Shown: positions 6,640 through 29,082 of the stretch, piece by piece
How the letters are laid out: every line of letters starts with the position of its first letter
Numbering within the stretch: position 1 is the first letter of the stretch
Notes under the pieces: model-generated
The model's input: only the letters and a program-made list of their open reading frames with translations
Database searches by the model: none
Told to the model about the DNA's origin: nothing
Made by a program: the position numbers and the translations under genes
Source of the DNA: Christiangramia portivictoriae DSM 23547
Lineage (GTDB): Bacteria; Bacteroidota; Bacteroidia; Flavobacteriales; Flavobacteriaceae
Assembly: GCF_000423045.1 (NCBI RefSeq)
Contig: NZ_AUHF01000001.1
Location: 186,001 to 250,000 of the forward strand
DNA length: 64,000 nt
Reading direction: 5' to 3'

Positions 6640-6670
6640 TTTGCAGGGCTCATAATTACCGCTATATTTG
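6640..6670 (+). promoter_or_regulatory. promoter of alginate unit 1 (TTTG-N19-TATATTTG)
   Basis: TTTG at 6640-6643 and TATATTTG at 6663-6670 are separated by 19 bp, an exact match to the Bacteroidota consensus (TTTG at -33, TAnnTTTG at -7). Transcription should start around 6675-6678, giving a leader of only about 20-25 nt before the PL6 start codon. Confidence 0.75.
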
Positions 6671-6691
6671 GTAAACCAGATTGGTAAACCA
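6669..6691. promoter_or_regulatory. operator array 1: two TGGTAAACCA palindromes 13 bp apart
   Basis: TGGTAAACCA occurs at 6669-6678 and again at 6682-6691. The first copy shares its TG with the last bases of the -7 box, so a bound protein would block the promoter and transcript start. TGGT-N2-ACCA resembles known operators of FadR-subfamily GntR uronate regulators (UxuR/ExuR type). The same geometry recurs at 14060 and 21818. Confidence 0.75.
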
Positions 6692-11376: not shown

Positions 11377-13620
11377 ATGAAAATAAATCCTTCAGTACTT
11401 TATCTATGCACATTTTTACTCGCGTTCAGTGCTACGACTTATGCTCAGAACCACAATTCAGAAAAACCTGACCAAACAGCGATCGTAAAACAGCAGCTGG
11501 AGGAAAATTCCCTGTTCGATAAAACCCTTCAGAAGATAAAGAAAGAGGTAGATGCAGAAATTGCTAAGGGTATAGATGTGCCTGTTCCAAAAGATCTCGC
11601 GGGCGGCTATACCCATGAAAGGCATAAAAAAAATTACGCAACAGCACAAAACGCTGGTGATCTTTACAGAATTGAAAAGGATGAGAAGTATGCGATCTAC
11701 ATCAAGGAAATGTTAATGCAATATGCGGCGATGTTTCCAGAACTGCCATTACATCCTGAAGAAAGATCCTATGCCAGAGGGAAATTATTCTGGCAATCTC
11801 TGAATGATTCTAACTGGCTTGTTGCAATGAGCCAGGCTTATGGTAGTATTTACGACTATCTCGATAAAAAAGAGAGAGATCAACTGGAAAAGGATCTTTT
11901 CCTGCCATACGCCGACTTCCTTTCTCTTGAAAACCCAAAATTCTTCAATAGAATTCATAATCATAGTACCTGGGGAAATGCCGCTGTTGGGATGATTGGG
12001 CTGGTCATGAATAATGACGAACTCGTCAATCGTGCCTTATACGGAATGAAAAACACTAATATTTCTGAAGATGCTCGTGATGATGATGGTGGGCGTATCC
12101 TGAAACAGGGACAGAAAGCTGGTTTCCTGGCAAATCTTGAAGAAGCTTTTTCTCCATCTGGTTACTACACTGAGGGACCTTATTACCAGCGCTATGCTAT
12201 GTATCCATTTATCATGTTTGCCAAGGCGCTTGAAGATAAAAGACCAGACATTAAGATATTTGAACATAAAGATGGAGTGCTAATCAAAGCTGTAAATGCT
12301 ATACTAAATCTAACAGATGCAGATGGTGATTTCTTTCCATTGAACGATGCTCAAAAAGGAATGTCTATTTACAATCAATCAATCGTGATCGCTGTAGATG
12401 CAGCTTACTATTATGGCGATAGATCACCTGGCCTACTTTCTGTAGCACAAAAGCAGGGTAGAGTGACTCTTGATGAGGCCGGTAAAGCTGTGGCACAGGC
12501 AATTCAATCTGGAGAAATTCAGGATTTCGAAAAAAGTTCCTTGAACCTTTCAGATGGTCCGGAAGGAAATAAAGGCGGGATCACCATCCTACGACAAGGA
12601 AAACCGGGAAACAATTATTCGCTGGTTTATAAATACACATCGCAGGGAGATAGTCATGGTCATTATGATAAGCTTTCATTTTCATTTTATAATGAAGGAG
12701 AAGAAATCATTCAGGATTATGGATTTGCAAGATTTGTGAATATAGAACCTAAGAAAGGTGGAGGATATTTAAAAGAAAATACCAGCTGGGCAAAACAAAG
12801 CATTGCTCACAATACGATTGTGCAAAATGAAACTTCTCATTTCGATGGTGATTTCGATACAGGAAGCAAATACAATCCTGAGTTATATTTTTCAGATTTC
12901 ACTTTGAATGACATTAAAATCGTAAGTGCTATAGATACAAATGCATATCCCGGAACAAAAATGCATCGTACAATGGTCATGCTGGAAAATGAGCTTTTTC
13001 AGAATCCCGTGATTCTGGATATTTTTAGACTAGAGGGAGAGAAAGAAAATCAATATGATCTACCATTCTATTATCAGGGACAGATCATCGATACCAATTT
13101 CGAGATCAATATGCCAGAGCAGTTGCAGAAATTAGGAAGCAAAAACGGATATCAGCATTTATGGGTTGAGTCCCGTGGTAAGGCAGGTGAGTCTAATACT
13201 AAGTTTACATGGTCCAATAACAGGAGATTTTATACGCTTACTCAGGCTCTGGGAAGTAAAGATCGCGTTATACTGGGGAGAATTGGAGCCACAGACCCTG
13301 AATTCAATCTAAGACGTGATCCGGTATTTATTAGTCGGAAGGAAAAGGCAAAGGATGCATTATTCATTACCGTATTGGAACCACATGGAAGTTATGATCC
13401 TGTGACTGAGTTGGGAAAAAATAGTTTTAGCCAGGTGAAGGATCTAAGAGTAATTACAGATACTCCAGAATATACAGCTGTACAGATCACGGGACACAAC
13501 GGCGAACGAATTTTATTTCTTATGAGTAATGAGGAAACTTCTGTAGATGAACAACATCAATTAATCATAAATAAAGAGGAGTTCAAATGGGATGGACCCT
13601 ATACAATAATCAATAAATAA
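11377..13620 (+). CDS. PL17 exo-acting oligoalginate lyase
   Basis: A 747-residue protein with signal peptide (about 1-23, ending TTYAQ). It closely resembles Alg17C-type PL17 enzymes: GGYTHERHKKNY near residue 75, RIHNHSTWGNAAVGM with catalytic Asn195/His196, TEGPYYQRY with catalytic Tyr270, and SHGHYDK in the C-terminal heparinase II/III domain. PL17 enzymes release unsaturated uronate monomers from alginate oligomers; these rearrange to DEH. Compared with Alg17C as I remember it, there is an insertion of about 15 residues, rich in Asp and Gly, between Asn195 and Tyr270. It lies just upstream of kdgF, which handles the released monomer. Confidence 0.92.
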   Translation: MKINPSVLYLCTFLLAFSATTYAQNHNSEKPDQTAIVKQQLEENSLFDKTLQKIKKEVDAEIAKGIDVPVPKDLAGGYTHERHKKNYATAQNAGDLYRIEKDEKYAIYIKEMLMQYAAMFPELPLHPEERSYARGKLFWQSLNDSNWLVAMSQAYGSIYDYLDKKERDQLEKDLFLPYADFLSLENPKFFNRIHNHSTWGNAAVGMIGLVMNNDELVNRALYGMKNTNISEDARDDDGGRILKQGQKAGFLANLEEAFSPSGYYTEGPYYQRYAMYPFIMFAKALEDKRPDIKIFEHKDGVLIKAVNAILNLTDADGDFFPLNDAQKGMSIYNQSIVIAVDAAYYYGDRSPGLLSVAQKQGRVTLDEAGKAVAQAIQSGEIQDFEKSSLNLSDGPEGNKGGITILRQGKPGNNYSLVYKYTSQGDSHGHYDKLSFSFYNEGEEIIQDYGFARFVNIEPKKGGGYLKENTSWAKQSIAHNTIVQNETSHFDGDFDTGSKYNPELYFSDFTLNDIKIVSAIDTNAYPGTKMHRTMVMLENELFQNPVILDIFRLEGEKENQYDLPFYYQGQIIDTNFEINMPEQLQKLGSKNGYQHLWVESRGKAGESNTKFTWSNNRRFYTLTQALGSKDRVILGRIGATDPEFNLRRDPVFISRKEKAKDALFITVLEPHGSYDPVTELGKNSFSQVKDLRVITDTPEYTAVQITGHNGERILFLMSNEETSVDEQHQLIINKEEFKWDGPYTIINK

Positions 13621-13627
13621 ATAGAAA

Positions 13628-13972
13628 ATGAAAGATTTAGGAACGAGCAAGGAATTCATGAAAGCACAGGAAATCGAATGGGAAACCGTTGGTGAAGGTG
13701 TGCGAAGACAAATTATGGGATATGATGATAAGATCTTACTGGCTAAGGTACATTTTAAAGAAGGAAGAGTTGGACCAATGCATGAGCATCATCATTCACA
13801 AGTAACTTATGTGGTAAGTGGAAAATTTGAGCTAACTATTGGCGATGAAACAAAGATGATGGAAGGCGGTGATTCGTTTTATATACCACCTCATAAAATG
13901 CATGGCGCTATTTGTAAAGAAGAAGGTGTGCTGATAGATGTCTTCAGTCCAATAAGAGAAGATTTCTTCTAG
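13628..13972 (+). CDS. kdgF: KdgF-like cupin, unsaturated uronate ring-opening protein
   Basis: A 114-residue single-domain cupin. Metal-binding residues are visible in MHEHHHSQ (His52, His54, Gln58) and in PPHKMHGA near residue 92. KdgF converts the cyclic 4,5-unsaturated uronate made by alginate or pectin lyases to the linear keto form, feeding DEH to the reductase. It starts 7 bp after the PL17 gene and has no signal peptide, which suggests a cytoplasmic or shared role. It is the last gene of unit 1. Confidence 0.88.
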   Translation: MKDLGTSKEFMKAQEIEWETVGEGVRRQIMGYDDKILLAKVHFKEGRVGPMHEHHHSQVTYVVSGKFELTIGDETKMMEGGDSFYIPPHKMHGAICKEEGVLIDVFSPIREDFF

Positions 13973-13991
13973 GAATTATACTGAATTATAG

Positions 13992-14034
13992 ATCTGATAA
14001 AAAAAAGGATAATTTTTTGTCAGATTAATTTTTT
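13992..14034 (+). terminator. AT-rich intrinsic terminator of alginate unit 1
   Basis: A 13-bp stem (13992-14004 with 14013-14025, one G-T pair) encloses an 8-nt loop and is followed by TAATTTTTT. It closes the PL6-to-kdgF unit just before the next promoter. Its T tract overlaps the expected -33 position of that promoter. Confidence 0.65.
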
Positions 14035-14061
14035 ACTTAACAATAAAATAACATATATTTG
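14031..14061 (+). promoter_or_regulatory. promoter of alginate unit 2 (TATATTTG -7 box)
   Basis: TATATTTG at 14054-14061 is a full match to TAnnTTTG. The -33 position (14031-14034) reads TTTT, a partial match, so the promoter may be weaker than promoter 1. The transcript would have a leader of about 265 nt before susC. Confidence 0.65.
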
Positions 14062-14095
14062 GTAAACCAGTTTGGGAAACCAATCTGGATAACCA
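14060..14095. promoter_or_regulatory. operator array 2: three TGGTAAACCA-like palindromes, 13-bp phase
   Basis: TGGTAAACCA (14060-14069), TGGGAAACCA (14073-14082) and TGGATAACCA (14086-14095) start exactly 13 bp apart. The first copy begins six bases into the -7 box, as at array 1. The second and third copies are degenerate in the left half-site. Probable binding site of the GntR protein encoded at 21869. Confidence 0.75.
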
Positions 14096-14119
14096 ATAAA
14101 AGTTATTTTTGGAATGGTC

Positions 14120-14217
14120 AAAAAAATAAAGGATAGGTGCACGCCTATCCTTTAAAACTTAAACTTCATTTGAGAGAAGTCGTTTAAACCATGTCTATTA
14201 CTCAATAGTAAACATGA
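14120..14217 (-). ncRNA. candidate antisense small RNA opposite the susC leader
   Basis: Read on the minus strand, about 97 nt run from a TATCTTTG -7 box (14229-14222) to a strong intrinsic terminator: an 11-bp stem (14127-14137 with 14144-14154), 6-nt loop, then seven U from 14126 to 14120. Near the 5' end is a second hairpin, with arms at 14190-14199 and 14204-14216 and a 3-nt bulge. The U tract exists only on the minus strand, where no other gene could use this terminator for 14 kb. Cis-antisense RNAs next to susC genes (DonS in Bacteroides fragilis) repress their polysaccharide loci, and the layout is the same. Ends are estimates. Confidence 0.6.
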
Positions 14218-14221
14218 ATTG

Positions 14222-14251
14222 CAAAGATACAATTTCATAAGTAACTACATA
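14222..14251 (-). promoter_or_regulatory. minus-strand promoter of the candidate antisense RNA
   Basis: On the minus strand the -7 box is TATCTTTG (14229-14222), matching TAnnTTTG, with a partial -33 box TATG (14251-14248) 18 bp upstream. The start would fall near 14217. Confidence 0.5.
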
Positions 14252-14331
14252 GACATTTCTAGCAACCATTGTCTGTCAATACTTTTTCTCGGTTAGGACT
14301 ATTTAAATCAATGTAACTAAATTAAAAACTT

Positions 14332-17300
14332 ATGAACTTGAAGAAAACAGCAATTTTCTTAGTGGCGCTACTATGTCATTTGGCTCTGATTGCTCAGGAA
14401 AGTAATGCACTTTCAGGTACTGTGACCTCAGAGGGAGATGCAGTTCCTCTGGCTGGAGTTAGCGTGATGATCAAAGGTACAACGACCGGGGTTGTAACCG
14501 ATTTTGACGGTAATTACGAAATCGATGTAGTAGATGGGAACGTGTTGCAGTTCTCCTATCTTGGCTTTGTAAGCCAGGAAATTACGTATAATGGTCAGCA
14601 AACTTTGGATGTTGTCATGGCCTCAGATTCTCAATTACTTGACGAGACAGTAGTAATTGGGTATGGTACCAGAAAGAAAAGTCACCTTACCGGTGCAGTT
14701 TCCAGCGTGGTAAACGAAGATCTTGACCAATTACCTGTAGCACGTGTGGACGATGCACTTGTTGGACAGATTTCCGGGGTGAACATACAGGCCACCGATG
14801 GTCAGGCTGGTGCTGCCCCTACCATTAGAATCAGGGGTACAGGTTCTTTAACCGGTAGCTCGGCTCCATTGATTGTTGTAGATGGGCTGGTAGTAGACAA
14901 TGACTTCCTGGGGAGTTTGGATATGAGCGAGGTTGAATCTTTTGATGTTTTAAAAGATGCCGCTTCAGCCGCTATCTATGGTTCCCGAGGAGGAAACGGG
15001 GTGATCCTGATTACCACCAAACAGGGTAAGGAAGGGAAAACTGTATTTAGTTACCAGGGATATAGCGGTTATAAGGAAGCAAGACAAAGTGATGCGTATT
15101 ATTTTTCTGTTGCTGAAACTGCTGCGGCAGAACTTGCTGCAACCGGAGAACTTTCTCCAAGAACACAATACATACAGGCAATTGGTATTGATCGTGACTG
15201 GCAGGATGATATCTTCGACGGTGGTTTGATCCAGAATCATTCTTTAAGTGCACGTGGAGGATCAGAAAATACCAAATTCAGTATTTCTTTAGGATACCTG
15301 CATGATGAAGGGGTATTATTAACAGATGATTACAAGAGATATAACCTAAGACTGAAACTAGACACCAAGGTAAGCGACAAGTTTAGGTTTGGTGGTAACC
15401 TTGCACCATCTTATACAGATACCAGACGTTTTGATGGATCTACTCATGATATATTACGTCAGCCGCCATGGTTGCCAATCTACCATGATGAGAATACCAT
15501 TCAGTTCGTAGATAGAAATGTATATCCAGATGTTGAGGTTGGTGATTATGCTGTACAAAGACACTTCGATAATTATGATCTTTTTGGAGATGGAACTTTA
15601 ATAGATATTAGCGATACCTCCAATACGAATCCAGCTGCCAAAGTTCTGGAAAGAGATAGAAATGATTACAAATTCAAAGTATTTGGAAATTTCTATGCAG
15701 ACTATGAGATCATGGACGATCTTAATTTAAGAACAACACTTTCCGGAGATTATCAGCATACCATGCGTGATAGATGGCAGGGAGTTCTCGCGAGCCGTAA
15801 CGGTGCATCAGATGCCAGTTACAATGTGGAGAACGAACGTGCGATCCACCTGGCTTCTGAAACGTATCTTACTTATGATAAGACTTTTGGAAAACACGAA
15901 TTTGATGCTGTTGCCGGAATCACTTTCGAGCAGTGGGATTATGAAGGTAGCTACTCCTTAGGAACCGGTTATACTTCAGATTTAATTAAAACCTTATCTG
16001 CAGCTACAGTTGCTTCAGAAATAGACTCGTGGGTTTATGATGAAAGATTCCAGAGTTACTTCGCGAGACTAAACTGGGCTTATGCAGATAAATACCTGGC
16101 ATCTTTCAGTTATAGAAGGGATGGAAGTTCTGTATTTGGTTCTGATTCCAAATACGGTGATTTCCCGGCCATTTCATTAGGTTGGGATATCGCTGAAGAA
16201 AATTTCCTGAAAGACAACGACTTCCTTAGTAGTTTCAAATTCAGGGTAAGTTATGGTTTCACGGGGAACAAGGATCTTGACACTAATTCAGACATTATAG
16301 ATCTTTACCCTTCCTTACCATTGCTGGGACCATCTTCAGCAACCATTGGTGGAGCAGTACAACCAGCTTTTGTCGCTCTTAACATTGCGAACCCAGATCT
16401 ACAATGGGAAAGATCCAAGGAAATAAATCCAGGTCTTGATTTTGGATTCCTGAAGAATAGAATTACCGGATCTATAGATTATTACAAAAGAACCAGTGAC
16501 CAGTTATTACTTTTTAACCCGATCTCTGCTTCTACCGGATTTAGAAATGCCCTTGTAAATATAGGAGAGGTGGAAAACAGTGGTCTTGAGGTGGAACTTC
16601 GCACCAGGAATTTCGCTAACTCCAATTTTGGATGGAACACAACAATTCTTGCTTCCAGAAATAAAAATGAACTAACAGATTTTGCAGATTCTAACGGACA
16701 GATTGGGCTGGTAGATGACAAAAGAGCTGCAGAATGGATCAACCTGGAAGGTCAGCCAATTTCATCTTTTTATGGATGGGTTGTAGACAGAGATATTCCC
16801 AGAGAACTTCGTGAAAGACCATATTTCCCGATTGGGGCAGAAGCTCAGGATGTATATGTAAAGGATCTAAATGGTGATGGTGTTATTGATGATGATGACA
16901 AGACAATTCTTGGAAACCCATACCCAGATCTTATCTGGAGTTTGACCAATGACTTTAGAATAGGTAACCTGGATATAAGTTTCCTTTTCCAGGGAAGTCA
17001 TGGTGCTGAGGTTAGAAACATGGGAGATCAGTATATCTTCAATCACTTTAATAGTGGAGCAGATTTTGACCCGGCGATCACACCAGATCAGGATTTCATC
17101 AGGGAAAAGATCTTTACAGATGATATCGTACAGGACGCTTCGTATGTTGCTCTTAGAAACCTGAATGTTGGTTACAATATTCCGGTAGAGGTTACAGGTA
17201 AACTGGGACTGAAGAGCTTGAGGATTTATGCAGCAGGGCAGAACCTGAAGTACTGGACGGCTGATGATTATACTGGTTTTAACCCAGAAAGTATCGATAA

Positions 17301-17385
17301 CACCTCGCCAACAACCTATGGGTATCAAAGAGCAGGTTCACCAATTTTCAGAACCATATCTATTGGGATCAATGCCGATTTTTAA
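14332..17385 (+). CDS. SusC-like TonB-dependent outer-membrane transporter for alginate oligomers
   Basis: A 1017-residue protein with signal peptide (about 1-22). An N-terminal carboxypeptidase-regulatory-like domain (about 26-105, LSGTVTSEGDAVPLAG) is followed by a TonB-box region and plug (ETVVIGYGTRKKSHLTGAVSS, about 108-230) and a large beta-barrel ending in the terminal Phe (INADF). SusC proteins import oligosaccharides with energy from TonB. Substrate is inferred from the adjoining lyases. Translation starts after a leader of about 265 nt that overlaps the antisense RNA. The susD gene follows 27 bp downstream. Confidence 0.93.
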   Translation: MNLKKTAIFLVALLCHLALIAQESNALSGTVTSEGDAVPLAGVSVMIKGTTTGVVTDFDGNYEIDVVDGNVLQFSYLGFVSQEITYNGQQTLDVVMASDSQLLDETVVIGYGTRKKSHLTGAVSSVVNEDLDQLPVARVDDALVGQISGVNIQATDGQAGAAPTIRIRGTGSLTGSSAPLIVVDGLVVDNDFLGSLDMSEVESFDVLKDAASAAIYGSRGGNGVILITTKQGKEGKTVFSYQGYSGYKEARQSDAYYFSVAETAAAELAATGELSPRTQYIQAIGIDRDWQDDIFDGGLIQNHSLSARGGSENTKFSISLGYLHDEGVLLTDDYKRYNLRLKLDTKVSDKFRFGGNLAPSYTDTRRFDGSTHDILRQPPWLPIYHDENTIQFVDRNVYPDVEVGDYAVQRHFDNYDLFGDGTLIDISDTSNTNPAAKVLERDRNDYKFKVFGNFYADYEIMDDLNLRTTLSGDYQHTMRDRWQGVLASRNGASDASYNVENERAIHLASETYLTYDKTFGKHEFDAVAGITFEQWDYEGSYSLGTGYTSDLIKTLSAATVASEIDSWVYDERFQSYFARLNWAYADKYLASFSYRRDGSSVFGSDSKYGDFPAISLGWDIAEENFLKDNDFLSSFKFRVSYGFTGNKDLDTNSDIIDLYPSLPLLGPSSATIGGAVQPAFVALNIANPDLQWERSKEINPGLDFGFLKNRITGSIDYYKRTSDQLLLFNPISASTGFRNALVNIGEVENSGLEVELRTRNFANSNFGWNTTILASRNKNELTDFADSNGQIGLVDDKRAAEWINLEGQPISSFYGWVVDRDIPRELRERPYFPIGAEAQDVYVKDLNGDGVIDDDDKTILGNPYPDLIWSLTNDFRIGNLDISFLFQGSHGAEVRNMGDQYIFNHFNSGADFDPAITPDQDFIREKIFTDDIVQDASYVALRNLNVGYNIPVEVTGKLGLKSLRIYAAGQNLKYWTADDYTGFNPESIDNTSPTTYGYQRAGSPIFRTISIGINADF

Positions 17386-17412: not shown

Positions 17413-18837
17413 ATGAACAAAAAAATATACTTAATCCTTGGAATCACGATCCTTACAATGGTTTCGTGTGGAAAAGACTTCCTGGAACCTGAGCCTGAGT
17501 CGGCAATTTCTGCTGAAGGTTATTTCCAGAACAGTGAGCAGGTGGAAACTGCAGTAATCGGGATGTATGACGCCATTCAGGGTGTGAATTCAAATGACCT
17601 GGATGACAACTTTAGTATCCAGAGAGAGTTTTATATTACTGAAATGCGTAGCGATAACACCCGTACAAAATCTCGTGAGGGTGAAGCAGCGCAATTCGAA
17701 AACTACCGGGTAACCACCAGTAATGGAATTGTCACCAATTACTACATCAGTTACTTCGAGATCATTTACAGAGCAAATCTTGTTCTGGCCAATCTTGAAG
17801 CTGCTAGTGAGGAAGATGTAGCACAGTTTGAAGCTGAAGCCAAATTTGTAAGAGCTTATGCTTATTTTAACCTGGTAAGATTATTTGGTCCGGTACCGTT
17901 AATAGATCGGCTTATTGGTCCGCTGGAAAAAGAAATAGCATTTACGAGAGCTTCTGAAGGAGCTATCTACGACCTTATTATTTCAGATCTAAATACTGCC
18001 ATCTCAGGACTGGACAATTCTTCCAGAAACAGGGCGTCCCAGGCAGCTGCACAAACATTGCTGGCAAAAGTGTACTTAACAACCGGTTCAAATTACACCG
18101 AAGCTCAGACGCTACTTGAATCTGTGATCAATAGTGGAGACTATTCGCTGGAATCTAATTTTAAGGATGTCTTTTATAATGAAAGCAATAGTGAAGTAAT
18201 CTACGCAGTAGGTTATACTTCAGATATCACTTCAGATAGCCAGAACTTTTCTGCTGAAATGCTGAACTCTGTAGGTAGAACCAGTGGAGTGAATTATGTG
18301 ACTGAAGATGCCAGAGCAGCACTGGATGCAAATGGAGGAAATAGAACTGCATTTTCTTACAGACAGGACCAGGCGCAGCCAACTCAATACCAGGTGGCAA
18401 AATATATTCCTAATGGTGATAGTGACCTTGGCATTGAACCAACCTCAAGCAACCCGGAACTTGCCGGAAATGACTGGATCGTTATTAGATATGCAGACGT
18501 TCTATTGCTACACGTAGAAGCGATTCTTGCAGGAGGACAGGAAACCAGCTCTACCGCAGCTCTAAATTCTTTCCAGAAAATTCGTGATAGAGCGGGTCTA
18601 ACAGATACTGTTACCAGCATTACCAAGGAAGATCTTCTGGAGGAGAGAAGAGTAGAACTTGCTTTTGAGAATCATAGATTTTTTGACCTGGTAAGATTTG
18701 GAGTGGCGCAGGAAGTGCTGTCTGAATTTGCACAGGAAAACGGATATGATTTTAGTGCGACCGATCTTTTGTTGCCTATTCCGCAGAGAGAGATCAACCT
18801 GAGCAATGGTCTTATGGAGCAAAATCCTGGTTATTAA
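17413..18837 (+). CDS. SusD-like outer-membrane glycan-binding lipoprotein
   Basis: A 474-residue RagB/SusD family protein. The lipoprotein signal ends at Cys19 (LTMVSC), followed by GKDFLEPEPE, a usual start for SusD proteins. The helical TPR-like core contains AKFVRAYAYFNLVRLFGPVPL, and the C-terminus carries LLEERRVELAFENHRFFDLVRFG, both characteristic. It should sit as a lid over the SusC barrel and capture alginate oligomers at the cell surface. It lies between susC and a PKD lipoprotein in unit 2. Confidence 0.92.
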   Translation: MNKKIYLILGITILTMVSCGKDFLEPEPESAISAEGYFQNSEQVETAVIGMYDAIQGVNSNDLDDNFSIQREFYITEMRSDNTRTKSREGEAAQFENYRVTTSNGIVTNYYISYFEIIYRANLVLANLEAASEEDVAQFEAEAKFVRAYAYFNLVRLFGPVPLIDRLIGPLEKEIAFTRASEGAIYDLIISDLNTAISGLDNSSRNRASQAAAQTLLAKVYLTTGSNYTEAQTLLESVINSGDYSLESNFKDVFYNESNSEVIYAVGYTSDITSDSQNFSAEMLNSVGRTSGVNYVTEDARAALDANGGNRTAFSYRQDQAQPTQYQVAKYIPNGDSDLGIEPTSSNPELAGNDWIVIRYADVLLLHVEAILAGGQETSSTAALNSFQKIRDRAGLTDTVTSITKEDLLEERRVELAFENHRFFDLVRFGVAQEVLSEFAQENGYDFSATDLLLPIPQREINLSNGLMEQNPGY

Positions 18838-21868: not shown

Positions 21869-22579
21869 ATGAATGTAGACGGATATACGAAAATCGAACT
21901 TCAGCAGCAAACGCGGAACGAGATCATTAGTAATATAAGAGAGTATATAAATTTCAAGAATCTCGAGCCGGGTGATAAATTGCCTTCTGAGAGAATGCTT
22001 TCTGAAAAATTTGGTGTTAGCCGAAATAATCTCAGGGAAGCCATCCAGACTCTGGAGTTCTACGGAATATTACAAAGTGTACCTCAAAGCGGAACCTATC
22101 TGGCAAACATTGGAGTGGTTGCCCTTAATGGGATGATCTCAGATATATTGAGTCTGGCAGATCCAGATTTTAAATCACTGGTGGAAACCAGGATTCTTCT
22201 GGAACTCAAAACAGTTCGTTTAGCAGCGCTAAGGCGTACTGAAGAGCAACTGGAACACATGAAAGAGACTCTGGAGGCATATACAATCAAAGCCGAGAAT
22301 GGGGAAGATGCCGTACAGGAAGATCTTTTATTCCACCTGGCAATTGCGAAAGCCAGTGGAAACAGTACTATGAACACGTTCATGCTTACCATTACTCCAG
22401 AGATCATCACGAATTTCGCAAAATATCATGTTTGCGATGAAAATCAGGCATTTTTAGGGATCGAAGAACATAAAGCTATTCTGGATGCTATTGAAGCTAG
22501 AGATCCGGTAAAGGCAAAGGAACAGATGAAAATTCACTTCAAAAGTTTATATAAGTATTGCTATAACGTAGACATCTGA
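21869..22579 (+). CDS. GntR-family (FadR subfamily) regulator of the alginate locus
   Basis: A 236-residue regulator. The N-terminal winged helix-turn-helix (about 12-80) shows LPSERMLSEKFGVSRNNLREA and a wing with PQSGTYLA; the C-terminal FCD ligand-binding domain (about 95-225) is all-helical with FHLAIAKASGN and EHKAILDAIEARD. FadR-subfamily members bind TGGT-N2/3-ACCA palindromes as dimers and respond to sugar acids. The arrays at 6669, 14060 and 21818 match such sites, so this protein probably represses all three units until an alginate breakdown product (DEH or KDG) appears. The inducer is inferred. Confidence 0.85.
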   Translation: MNVDGYTKIELQQQTRNEIISNIREYINFKNLEPGDKLPSERMLSEKFGVSRNNLREAIQTLEFYGILQSVPQSGTYLANIGVVALNGMISDILSLADPDFKSLVETRILLELKTVRLAALRRTEEQLEHMKETLEAYTIKAENGEDAVQEDLLFHLAIAKASGNSTMNTFMLTITPEIITNFAKYHVCDENQAFLGIEEHKAILDAIEARDPVKAKEQMKIHFKSLYKYCYNVDI

Positions 22580-28695: not shown

Positions 28696-29082
28696 TTACG
28701 GTATATCATTATTGATCTCGATCCAGTAGGAATCAGGATCCTGAAAATAGATCTGTTTGATCCCATCATCCCTTACATAGTATTTTTCCGGGGTTCCCAG
28801 CCAGTCGGAATATGGAATTTTTAATACATTAAGATGCTCAATTACCGACTCGAAATTAGCTGTAGAAAATGCGAAATGTATCGCTTTATTTGTTTTGATC
28901 TCGGCATCAGGTCGCGGTATTAGATGCAATTGCCTGCCTTCACCAATCGAGAGCCAGCGAGTTCTGGAATTCGAAGCCGTATTCTCGATCTCTTTAAACT
29001 GAAACACTTTCTGATAAAAATCGAAAGACTTGTCGACGTCCCGGACAGAAAGAGCGAAATGATTAAGTGAAAACTGATGCAT
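28696..29082 (-). CDS. VOC-family (glyoxalase/bleomycin-resistance fold) protein
   Basis: A 128-residue protein of two beta-alpha-beta-beta-beta units. The first unit has NHFALSVRDVDKSFDFYQ and the second IHFAFSTANFESVI, ending with FQDPDSYWIEIN, whose Glu is the usual metal ligand. Members include glyoxalase I-like lyases and resistance proteins; the substrate cannot be told. It is convergent with the LacI gene, with a 9-bp gap and no visible terminator. Confidence 0.8.
   Translation of the reverse strand: MHQFSLNHFALSVRDVDKSFDFYQKVFQFKEIENTASNSRTRWLSIGEGRQLHLIPRPDAEIKTNKAIHFAFSTANFESVIEHLNVLKIPYSDWLGTPEKYYVRDDGIKQIYFQDPDSYWIEINNDIP

Follow-up and report, generated by a model that had tools for sequence, protein, structure and literature searches.

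The minus strand of the susC leader in an alginate locus of Christiangramia portivictoriae DSM 23547 very probably carries a genuine antisense small RNA (sRNA) gene. The gene lies in a 64,000-nucleotide stretch of contig NZ_AUHF01000001.1 (positions 186,001 to 250,000), referred to here as the window and numbered from its first letter. An earlier sequence-only reading had proposed a candidate antisense sRNA at this position; comparison with related genomes bears out both the gene and its strand, and the scope proved larger than had been claimed, the element being a conserved family and not a local oddity. Sequence comparison establishes the predicted gene together with its strand and anatomy and links it to alginate-type leaders, and our best reading is that the family is widespread in Flavobacteriaceae and specific to such leaders. 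Flavobacteriaceae are important degraders of algal polysaccharides, and alginate is one of the main polysaccharides of brown algae.

The predicted antisense gene and the alginate locus

The predicted features of both strands are collected in Table 1. Both transcription starts were placed from TAnnTTTG -7 boxes, which span positions -12 to -5 (PMC9723704); this puts the start of the sRNA near 14217 and gives it a length of about 98 nt, folded into three hairpins (SL1 to SL3). The minus-strand -7 box, 11-bp stem and seven U described in the sequence-only reading are indeed present at 14229-14120. SL3, running from 14154 to 14127 on the minus strand, consists of 11 pairs closed by a 6-nt loop and followed by T7, and the loop of SL2 is UCUC in the window and CCCUCC or similar in many relatives. 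SL3 was the sole terminator-like site within 13600-14800, where 0.6 sites were expected by shuffling, so that the terminator scan is not significant by itself. Folding of the 132-nt minus strand gave -33.8 kcal/mol (z -3.9), and the plus strand of the same stretch also folds well (z -4.4); because both strands fold well, a single sequence leaves the strand undecided and it is the comparison with relatives that decides it. Five minus-strand ORFs of at least 90 aa were found between 14154 and 28.7 kb, all of them wholly or mostly inside plus-strand ORFs, and the first one not placed in this way lies at 28696-29082, in agreement with the earlier statement that no minus-strand gene exists within 14 kb. 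The terminator loop region also contains the palindrome GTGCAC (14137-14142), which recurs in many relatives; this recurrence exceeds the needs of a terminator, and a loop-loop contact or a protein site is possible.

Table 1. Predicted features of the antisense sRNA gene and of the surrounding alginate locus in the window.
Feature	Position	Strand	Basis or remark
Oligoalginate lyase-like gene, alginate-locus marker	11377..13620	+	PF05426, PF07940; NF042990 666.8 bits, under 1400 cut-off
Sense -7 box TATATTTG of the susC transcript	14054..14061	+	TAnnTTTG pattern, fused to operator repeat
Three tandem TxTGGnnAACCA repeats, likely GntR/FCD operator	14058..14095	+	Overlap predicted sense start
Predicted susC leader, 266 nt	14066..14331	+	Box spacing
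Predicted antisense sRNA, about 98 nt	14120..14217	-	Box spacing and T-tract end
Terminator T tract, seven U	14120..14126	-	T-rich minus side in 47 leaders
SL3, intrinsic terminator hairpin, loop CGUGCA	14127..14154	-	Terminator scan, folding, alignment
SL2, ACUUC...GAAGU hairpin, pyrimidine-rich loop	14162..14181	-	Alignment and folding
SL1, 5′ hairpin	14189..14217	-	Sequence variable, minus-strand fold kept
Antisense promoter -7 box TATCTTTG (TAnnTTTG)	14222..14229	-	Pattern; kept in relatives
susC (SusC/RagA TonB-linked outer-membrane protein)	14332..17385	+	TIGR04056, 786.7 bits
susD	17413..18837	+	PF07980
GntR/FCD regulator, likely operator reader	21869..22579	+	PF00392, PF07729

On the sense side, the predicted sRNA is complementary to positions about 55-152 of the 266-nt susC leader, leaving the last 114 nt ahead of the susC ATG uncovered. 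The earlier proposal of an RNA of about 97 nt complementary to this leader stands as to length and complementarity, limited to that part of the leader. The sense and antisense promoters face each other, their predicted starts being about 150 bp apart in the window. The susC leader and alginate context named in the sequence-only reading were confirmed by TIGR04056, PF07980, the lyase domains and the leader positions of the matches in other genomes. The alginate PUL encodes a chondroitinase-B-family lyase, which we take to be PL6-like, two heparinase-type lyases, the second of them oligoalginate-lyase-like, and a cupin, SusC, SusD, the GntR/FCD regulator, an MFS transporter, an SDR, a sugar kinase and a KDPG-type aldolase. 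The likely binder of the TGG..AACCA array is a GntR/FCD protein. A 29-base piece of the susC promoter-operator (14058-14095) has a 93% identical copy where the PL6-like lyase gene starts (6663-6691), and the operator copies at these two places likely outline the regulon of the GntR/FCD protein encoded at 21869-22579.

Conservation in relatives and the strand under selection

A DNA search of the family matched 102 of 397 genomes, the listed pieces falling mostly at the operator and at window positions 14120-14180. From 80 loci of SusC relatives we obtained 74 usable leaders, which together with the window formed a set of 75; six loci (L022, L024, L046, L070, L071 and L087) were left out for lack of a usable start or upstream sequence. 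The terminator hairpin was present by pattern in 47 of the 75 leaders, and in 57 once covariance-model matches were added; the model search for extra leaders covered 33 of the 80 loci and counted 13 minus-strand leader matches, including four weak ones (L068, L072, L073 and L075, E 0.0004 to 0.0053). A minus-strand -7 box lay 78-116 nt from the start of the hairpin in 44 of the 47 leaders, where dinucleotide shuffles gave an expectation of 2.0, and a box in the opposite orientation was found in none of them (1.1 expected). The T tract, which in the window had been assigned to the minus side (T7), was likewise one-sided in these leaders, with a mean of 9.6 T in the 12 nt flanking the stem on the minus side versus 5.7 on the plus side. 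The three leaders without a box (L040, L041 and L068) have degenerate hairpins and fall outside the 44-row alignment A2, and all structure counts below rest on 44 of the 47 leaders.

A covariance model, R1, was built from these 44 rows using the RNA without the -7 box. It matches the window, itself one of the rows, at 14119-14221 with 83 bits, and gave matches at E <= 0.001 in 98 of the 397 sampled family genomes. For the analysis of context we placed 93 loci, made up of 91 of the 104 listed family matches (the 13 weakest being left out) and two from a sample of the order, and 82 of these, window included, scored at least 47 bits and are referred to as strong matches. Since strong matches are relatives and not independent trials, P values are indicative, and the counts are to be read in that light: the exact box occurred in 66 of the 82 (2.8 expected) and a box with at most one mismatch in 80, the 16 without a perfect box including 14 with a single mismatch. 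For the 67 strong matches whose core is not identical to any in the 75 leaders, the box was present in 52, where 2.3 were expected. The sequence-only reading was to be abandoned if promoter and terminator were lacking in close relatives. When this comparison was run, all three other congeners with a homologous leader turned out to be strong matches, and conservation of promoter and terminator reaches well beyond the genus.

Across the 44 leaders, mean pairwise identity was 0.88 in SL3, 0.72 in SL2 and 0.80 in the box region, and the sense promoter-operator reached 0.79 (42 leaders). The linkers and the stretch between box and ATG stayed within 0.03-0.05 of shuffled values, so that operator, SL3, SL2 and box form islands of conservation; a 20-bp core of the terminator palindrome is strongly conserved. 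The profile of the 44 minus-strand promoters consists of TAnnTTTG, as required by the choice of rows, with a T-rich run from -5 to -3 and a frequent G directly before the box. The one element of the sequence-only reading to fall away was a "-33-like TATG", which has no conserved counterpart in these 44 related promoters, where no position upstream of -9 rises above 0.43 bits.

The proposal that relatives be inspected for compensatory changes in the hairpins was also followed, and six of the 17 consensus pairs in the 44-row alignment were found to have changed on both sides. When G·U pairs were mapped on the SusC tree, about 25 origins (41 cells) were counted on the minus strand versus one (1 cell) on the plus strand, in a test that leans toward the minus strand in that its pairs were predicted on the minus-strand alignment. 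For SL3 alone, which in the window is fully paired on either strand, the origins numbered 17 and 0, respectively. The folding energy of SL1 is independent of the pairs used in the G·U test: its mean MFE was -7.8 kcal/mol on the minus strand, -3.1 kcal/mol on the plus strand and -2.8 kcal/mol after shuffling, and in 40 of 44 leaders the minus strand was lower in energy, the plus strand staying near the shuffled level. The hairpin earlier described at the predicted 5′ end is a fold that is kept on the minus strand. The G·U asymmetry and the SL1 energies agree in indicating that selection is acting on the minus-strand RNA. A small peptide encoded within the sRNA was considered and rejected, as an ATG ORF of at least 15 codons occurs in only 18 of the 44 leaders and that of the window has 5 codons; by eye, no peptide was shared across the 44, some being common to close relatives.

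Distribution and genomic context of the sRNA family

In 79 of the 82 strong matches, the window included, the leader opposite the sRNA belongs to a SusC-like ORF. The remaining three (L155, L179 and L209) lie opposite a gntR leader, the gene product being 63-72% identical to the GntR/FCD protein of the window, and just upstream in L179 and L209 stands a gene related to the cupin of the window (46-67%); with this arrangement the mRNA of the regulator itself would come under the sRNA. In 81 of the 82 strong matches an operator-like repeat fused to a TAnnTTTG box was present within 150 nt, the exception being L218. Four strong matches were found in 24 congeneric genomes, three of them with this SusC and the fourth (G011) with the same leader followed by a SusC only 38% identical to that of the window. 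Together with the gntR cases, G011 implies that the sRNA tracks the alginate-type leader and not one susC sequence. In loci L076 and L082 an alginate-type leader with the sRNA stands before a SusC with only 36-38% identity to that of the window, as though susC were swapped behind a retained leader.

Within this genome, the search for a minus-strand terminator preceded at 40-200 nt by a box gave nothing in the 16 other SusC-like leaders (12 scoring above and four below the family cut-off, with starts set at the longest ATG frame and only 147 nt available for one of them). The median length of leaders that carry the sRNA is 323 nt. Nine leaders lack the sRNA and retain a recognisable promoter-operator; five of these are 107-172 nt long and four are 276-320 nt, indicating that loss of the sRNA is often, but not always, accompanied by shortening of the leader.

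Most genomes with a match have one strong copy. Second copies of the element (L202, L203 and L226) were noted in genomes G259, G271 and G049. In G259 and G271 the weaker of the two copies lies opposite another SusC leader; its -7 box is damaged, consistent with a duplicate in decay whether the RNA acts in cis or in trans. A distant version of the sRNA (45-47 bits) was seen in L218 and L220 opposite a more divergent SusC leader, which is located directly behind a GntR relative (52-53% identical) and is without the usual operator array. In the order and phylum samples (296 genomes each), in which the rows listed are almost all Flavobacteriaceae and other families are thinly represented, the sole match outside the family was in G468 (E 3.5e-5); having no SusC beside it, this match was treated as noise. 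Eleven of the 93 placed matches score below 47 bits, and the eight of these without an adjoining SusC are probably due to chance.

Proposed role and relation to known systems

The account that we favour, with moderate confidence, is that of a self-standing cis-antisense sRNA which silences leaky susC transcript and forms a threshold switch together with GntR control. The antisense switch is probably repressive. We infer expression of the sRNA, steady activity of its promoter, the part played by GntR, repression, decay of the duplex and threshold behaviour. Without alginate, the sense promoter would be kept off by the GntR/FCD regulator acting at the TGG..AACCA array, and the sRNA, produced steadily from its own promoter, would pair with leader positions 55-152 of leaky susC transcripts and silence them. 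Silencing would most likely proceed via cleavage of the duplex or early loss of the transcript, as the sRNA stops short of the start codon by 114 nt and cannot cover that codon. Alginate products would lift GntR repression, sense transcripts would come to outnumber the sRNA, and sense transcription passing over the sRNA promoter would switch the locus sharply on.

Several observations count against this account. No -33 element is conserved, 16 of the 82 strong matches are without a perfect box, four of the nine leaders without the sRNA match the others in length, and the RNA falls short of the translation start. The primary sequence of SL2 and SL3 is conserved beyond the needs of an RNA acting purely in cis, and the damaged box of the weaker copies in G259 and G271 would leave the cognate gene without an sRNA. 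The sequence conservation of SL2 (0.72) and SL3 (0.88), between linkers that are not conserved, makes a trans or protein-bound role possible. That the sRNA is mainly trans-acting, through the pyrimidine loop of SL2, the loop of SL3 or a protein partner, and that the induced alginate leader serves as a sponge titrating it, appears unlikely to us. Such a role is consistent with the same RNA being found opposite gntR leaders in three of the 82 strong matches and with the FopS sRNAs of Bacteroides, which act in trans on susC start regions (PMC11697453), but 81 of the 82 strong matches sit within an alginate-type leader, and pairing with the start regions of the 57 window ORFs, a weak test confined to the window, was no better than for shuffled sRNA. 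On a similarly tentative footing, the two roles could be joined, with a cis threshold for alginate uptake, SL2 and SL3 reporting to other genes, and the induced leader as sponge; in this joint reading the sRNA would be kept in the GntR-controlled alginate leader whatever the first gene. Sensing of brown-algal sugars would then be coupled to wider control.

The face-to-face promoters with predicted starts about 150 bp apart could also suggest that the act of antisense transcription alone matters, through interference between convergent promoters, and that the RNA has no role. We consider this improbable, given that interference needs a promoter and a terminator only, whereas the RNA hairpins are under selection, including SL1, whose sequence drifts while its fold is kept. 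Hairpins working in the plus-strand susC mRNA leader as a stabiliser, attenuator or riboregulator would accord with the good folding of that strand in the window (z -4.4), and are very improbable in view of the single plus-strand G·U event set against 25, the near-shuffled energies of SL1 on the plus strand, the T tract on the minus side and the conserved minus-strand -7 box. A riboswitch or attenuator in the sense leader was rejected on the same G·U counts and SL1 energies, which revealed no conservation of plus-strand structure. We give equally little credence to the palindrome being a DNA site for a protein, or the terminator merely halting stray antisense transcription: the strong conservation of the 20-bp core and the GTGCAC in the loop would be accommodated, but the G·U-only drift, the T tract, SL1, SL2 and the narrow range of distances to the box would be left unexplained.

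At the sRNA locus, Rfam returned no match at gathering score, a level reached in the window by a tRNA alone. Six Rfam matches within 13900-14400 were all far below their cut-offs and were rejected as evidence of a known RNA family; none of the six is FopS, for which a model is reported to have been deposited (PMC11697453) that may or may not be in the copy searched. A search of mostly open-access literature, PMC5613140 and PMC10294740 included, showed neither RNA-level control of an alginate locus nor an antisense RNA opposite the susC leader of an alginate locus or of a marine flavobacterium, which does not prove absence in print. The element offers a test set of 98 sampled family genomes, a strand-resolved structure and exact coordinates.

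Antisense and "Rfp" RNAs have been described in Flavobacterium psychrophilum, a member of the same family with the same TAnnTTTG promoters; in contrast to the present case, the parts of that study covered here mention none opposite the leader of a SusC or alginate gene, and there the PUL antisense RNAs of Bacteroides are named only as a starting point for similar studies (PMC9723704). FopS and GibS, described with RbpB in B. thetaiotaomicron, resemble the sRNA found here in being Bacteroidota sRNAs aimed at PUL transcripts, and FopS is reported to be multicopy, to act in trans on the susC start region, and to have a single-stranded 5′ seed and one terminator hairpin (PMC11697453). The present sRNA, by comparison, has one strong copy in most genomes with a match, a cis arrangement and three hairpins, and in place of pairing with the start-codon region its perfect overlap stays 114 nt away from the susC ATG.

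Having its own promoter and terminator is taken here as a defining trait of a DonS-type antisense RNA, and the sRNA of the window has both, the -33 part of the promoter not being conserved. DonS-type antisense RNAs repress PULs in Bacteroides (PMC7366714, PMC10994844), with reported lengths of 78-128 nt (PMC7366714), and such RNAs are reported at 15 PULs in B. fragilis, with 32 antisense RNAs in B. thetaiotaomicron (PMC10994844, PMC9723704). As with DonS, a small RNA is here encoded opposite the start of a susC-led PUL, and the 98 nt predicted in the window falls inside the reported range. The present sRNA differs in belonging to another order of Bacteroidota, in being found at one of 17 SusC-like leaders in its genome compared with the 15 PULs and 32 antisense RNAs reported in Bacteroides, in being conserved in sequence and fold across many genera, and in its tie to a GntR-type operator array, sometimes opposite gntR and not susC. 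A conserved antisense sRNA of this kind would extend DonS-like control of susC beyond gut Bacteroides. The best reading is of an element that resembles DonS in position but forms a conserved three-hairpin family tied to one regulon.
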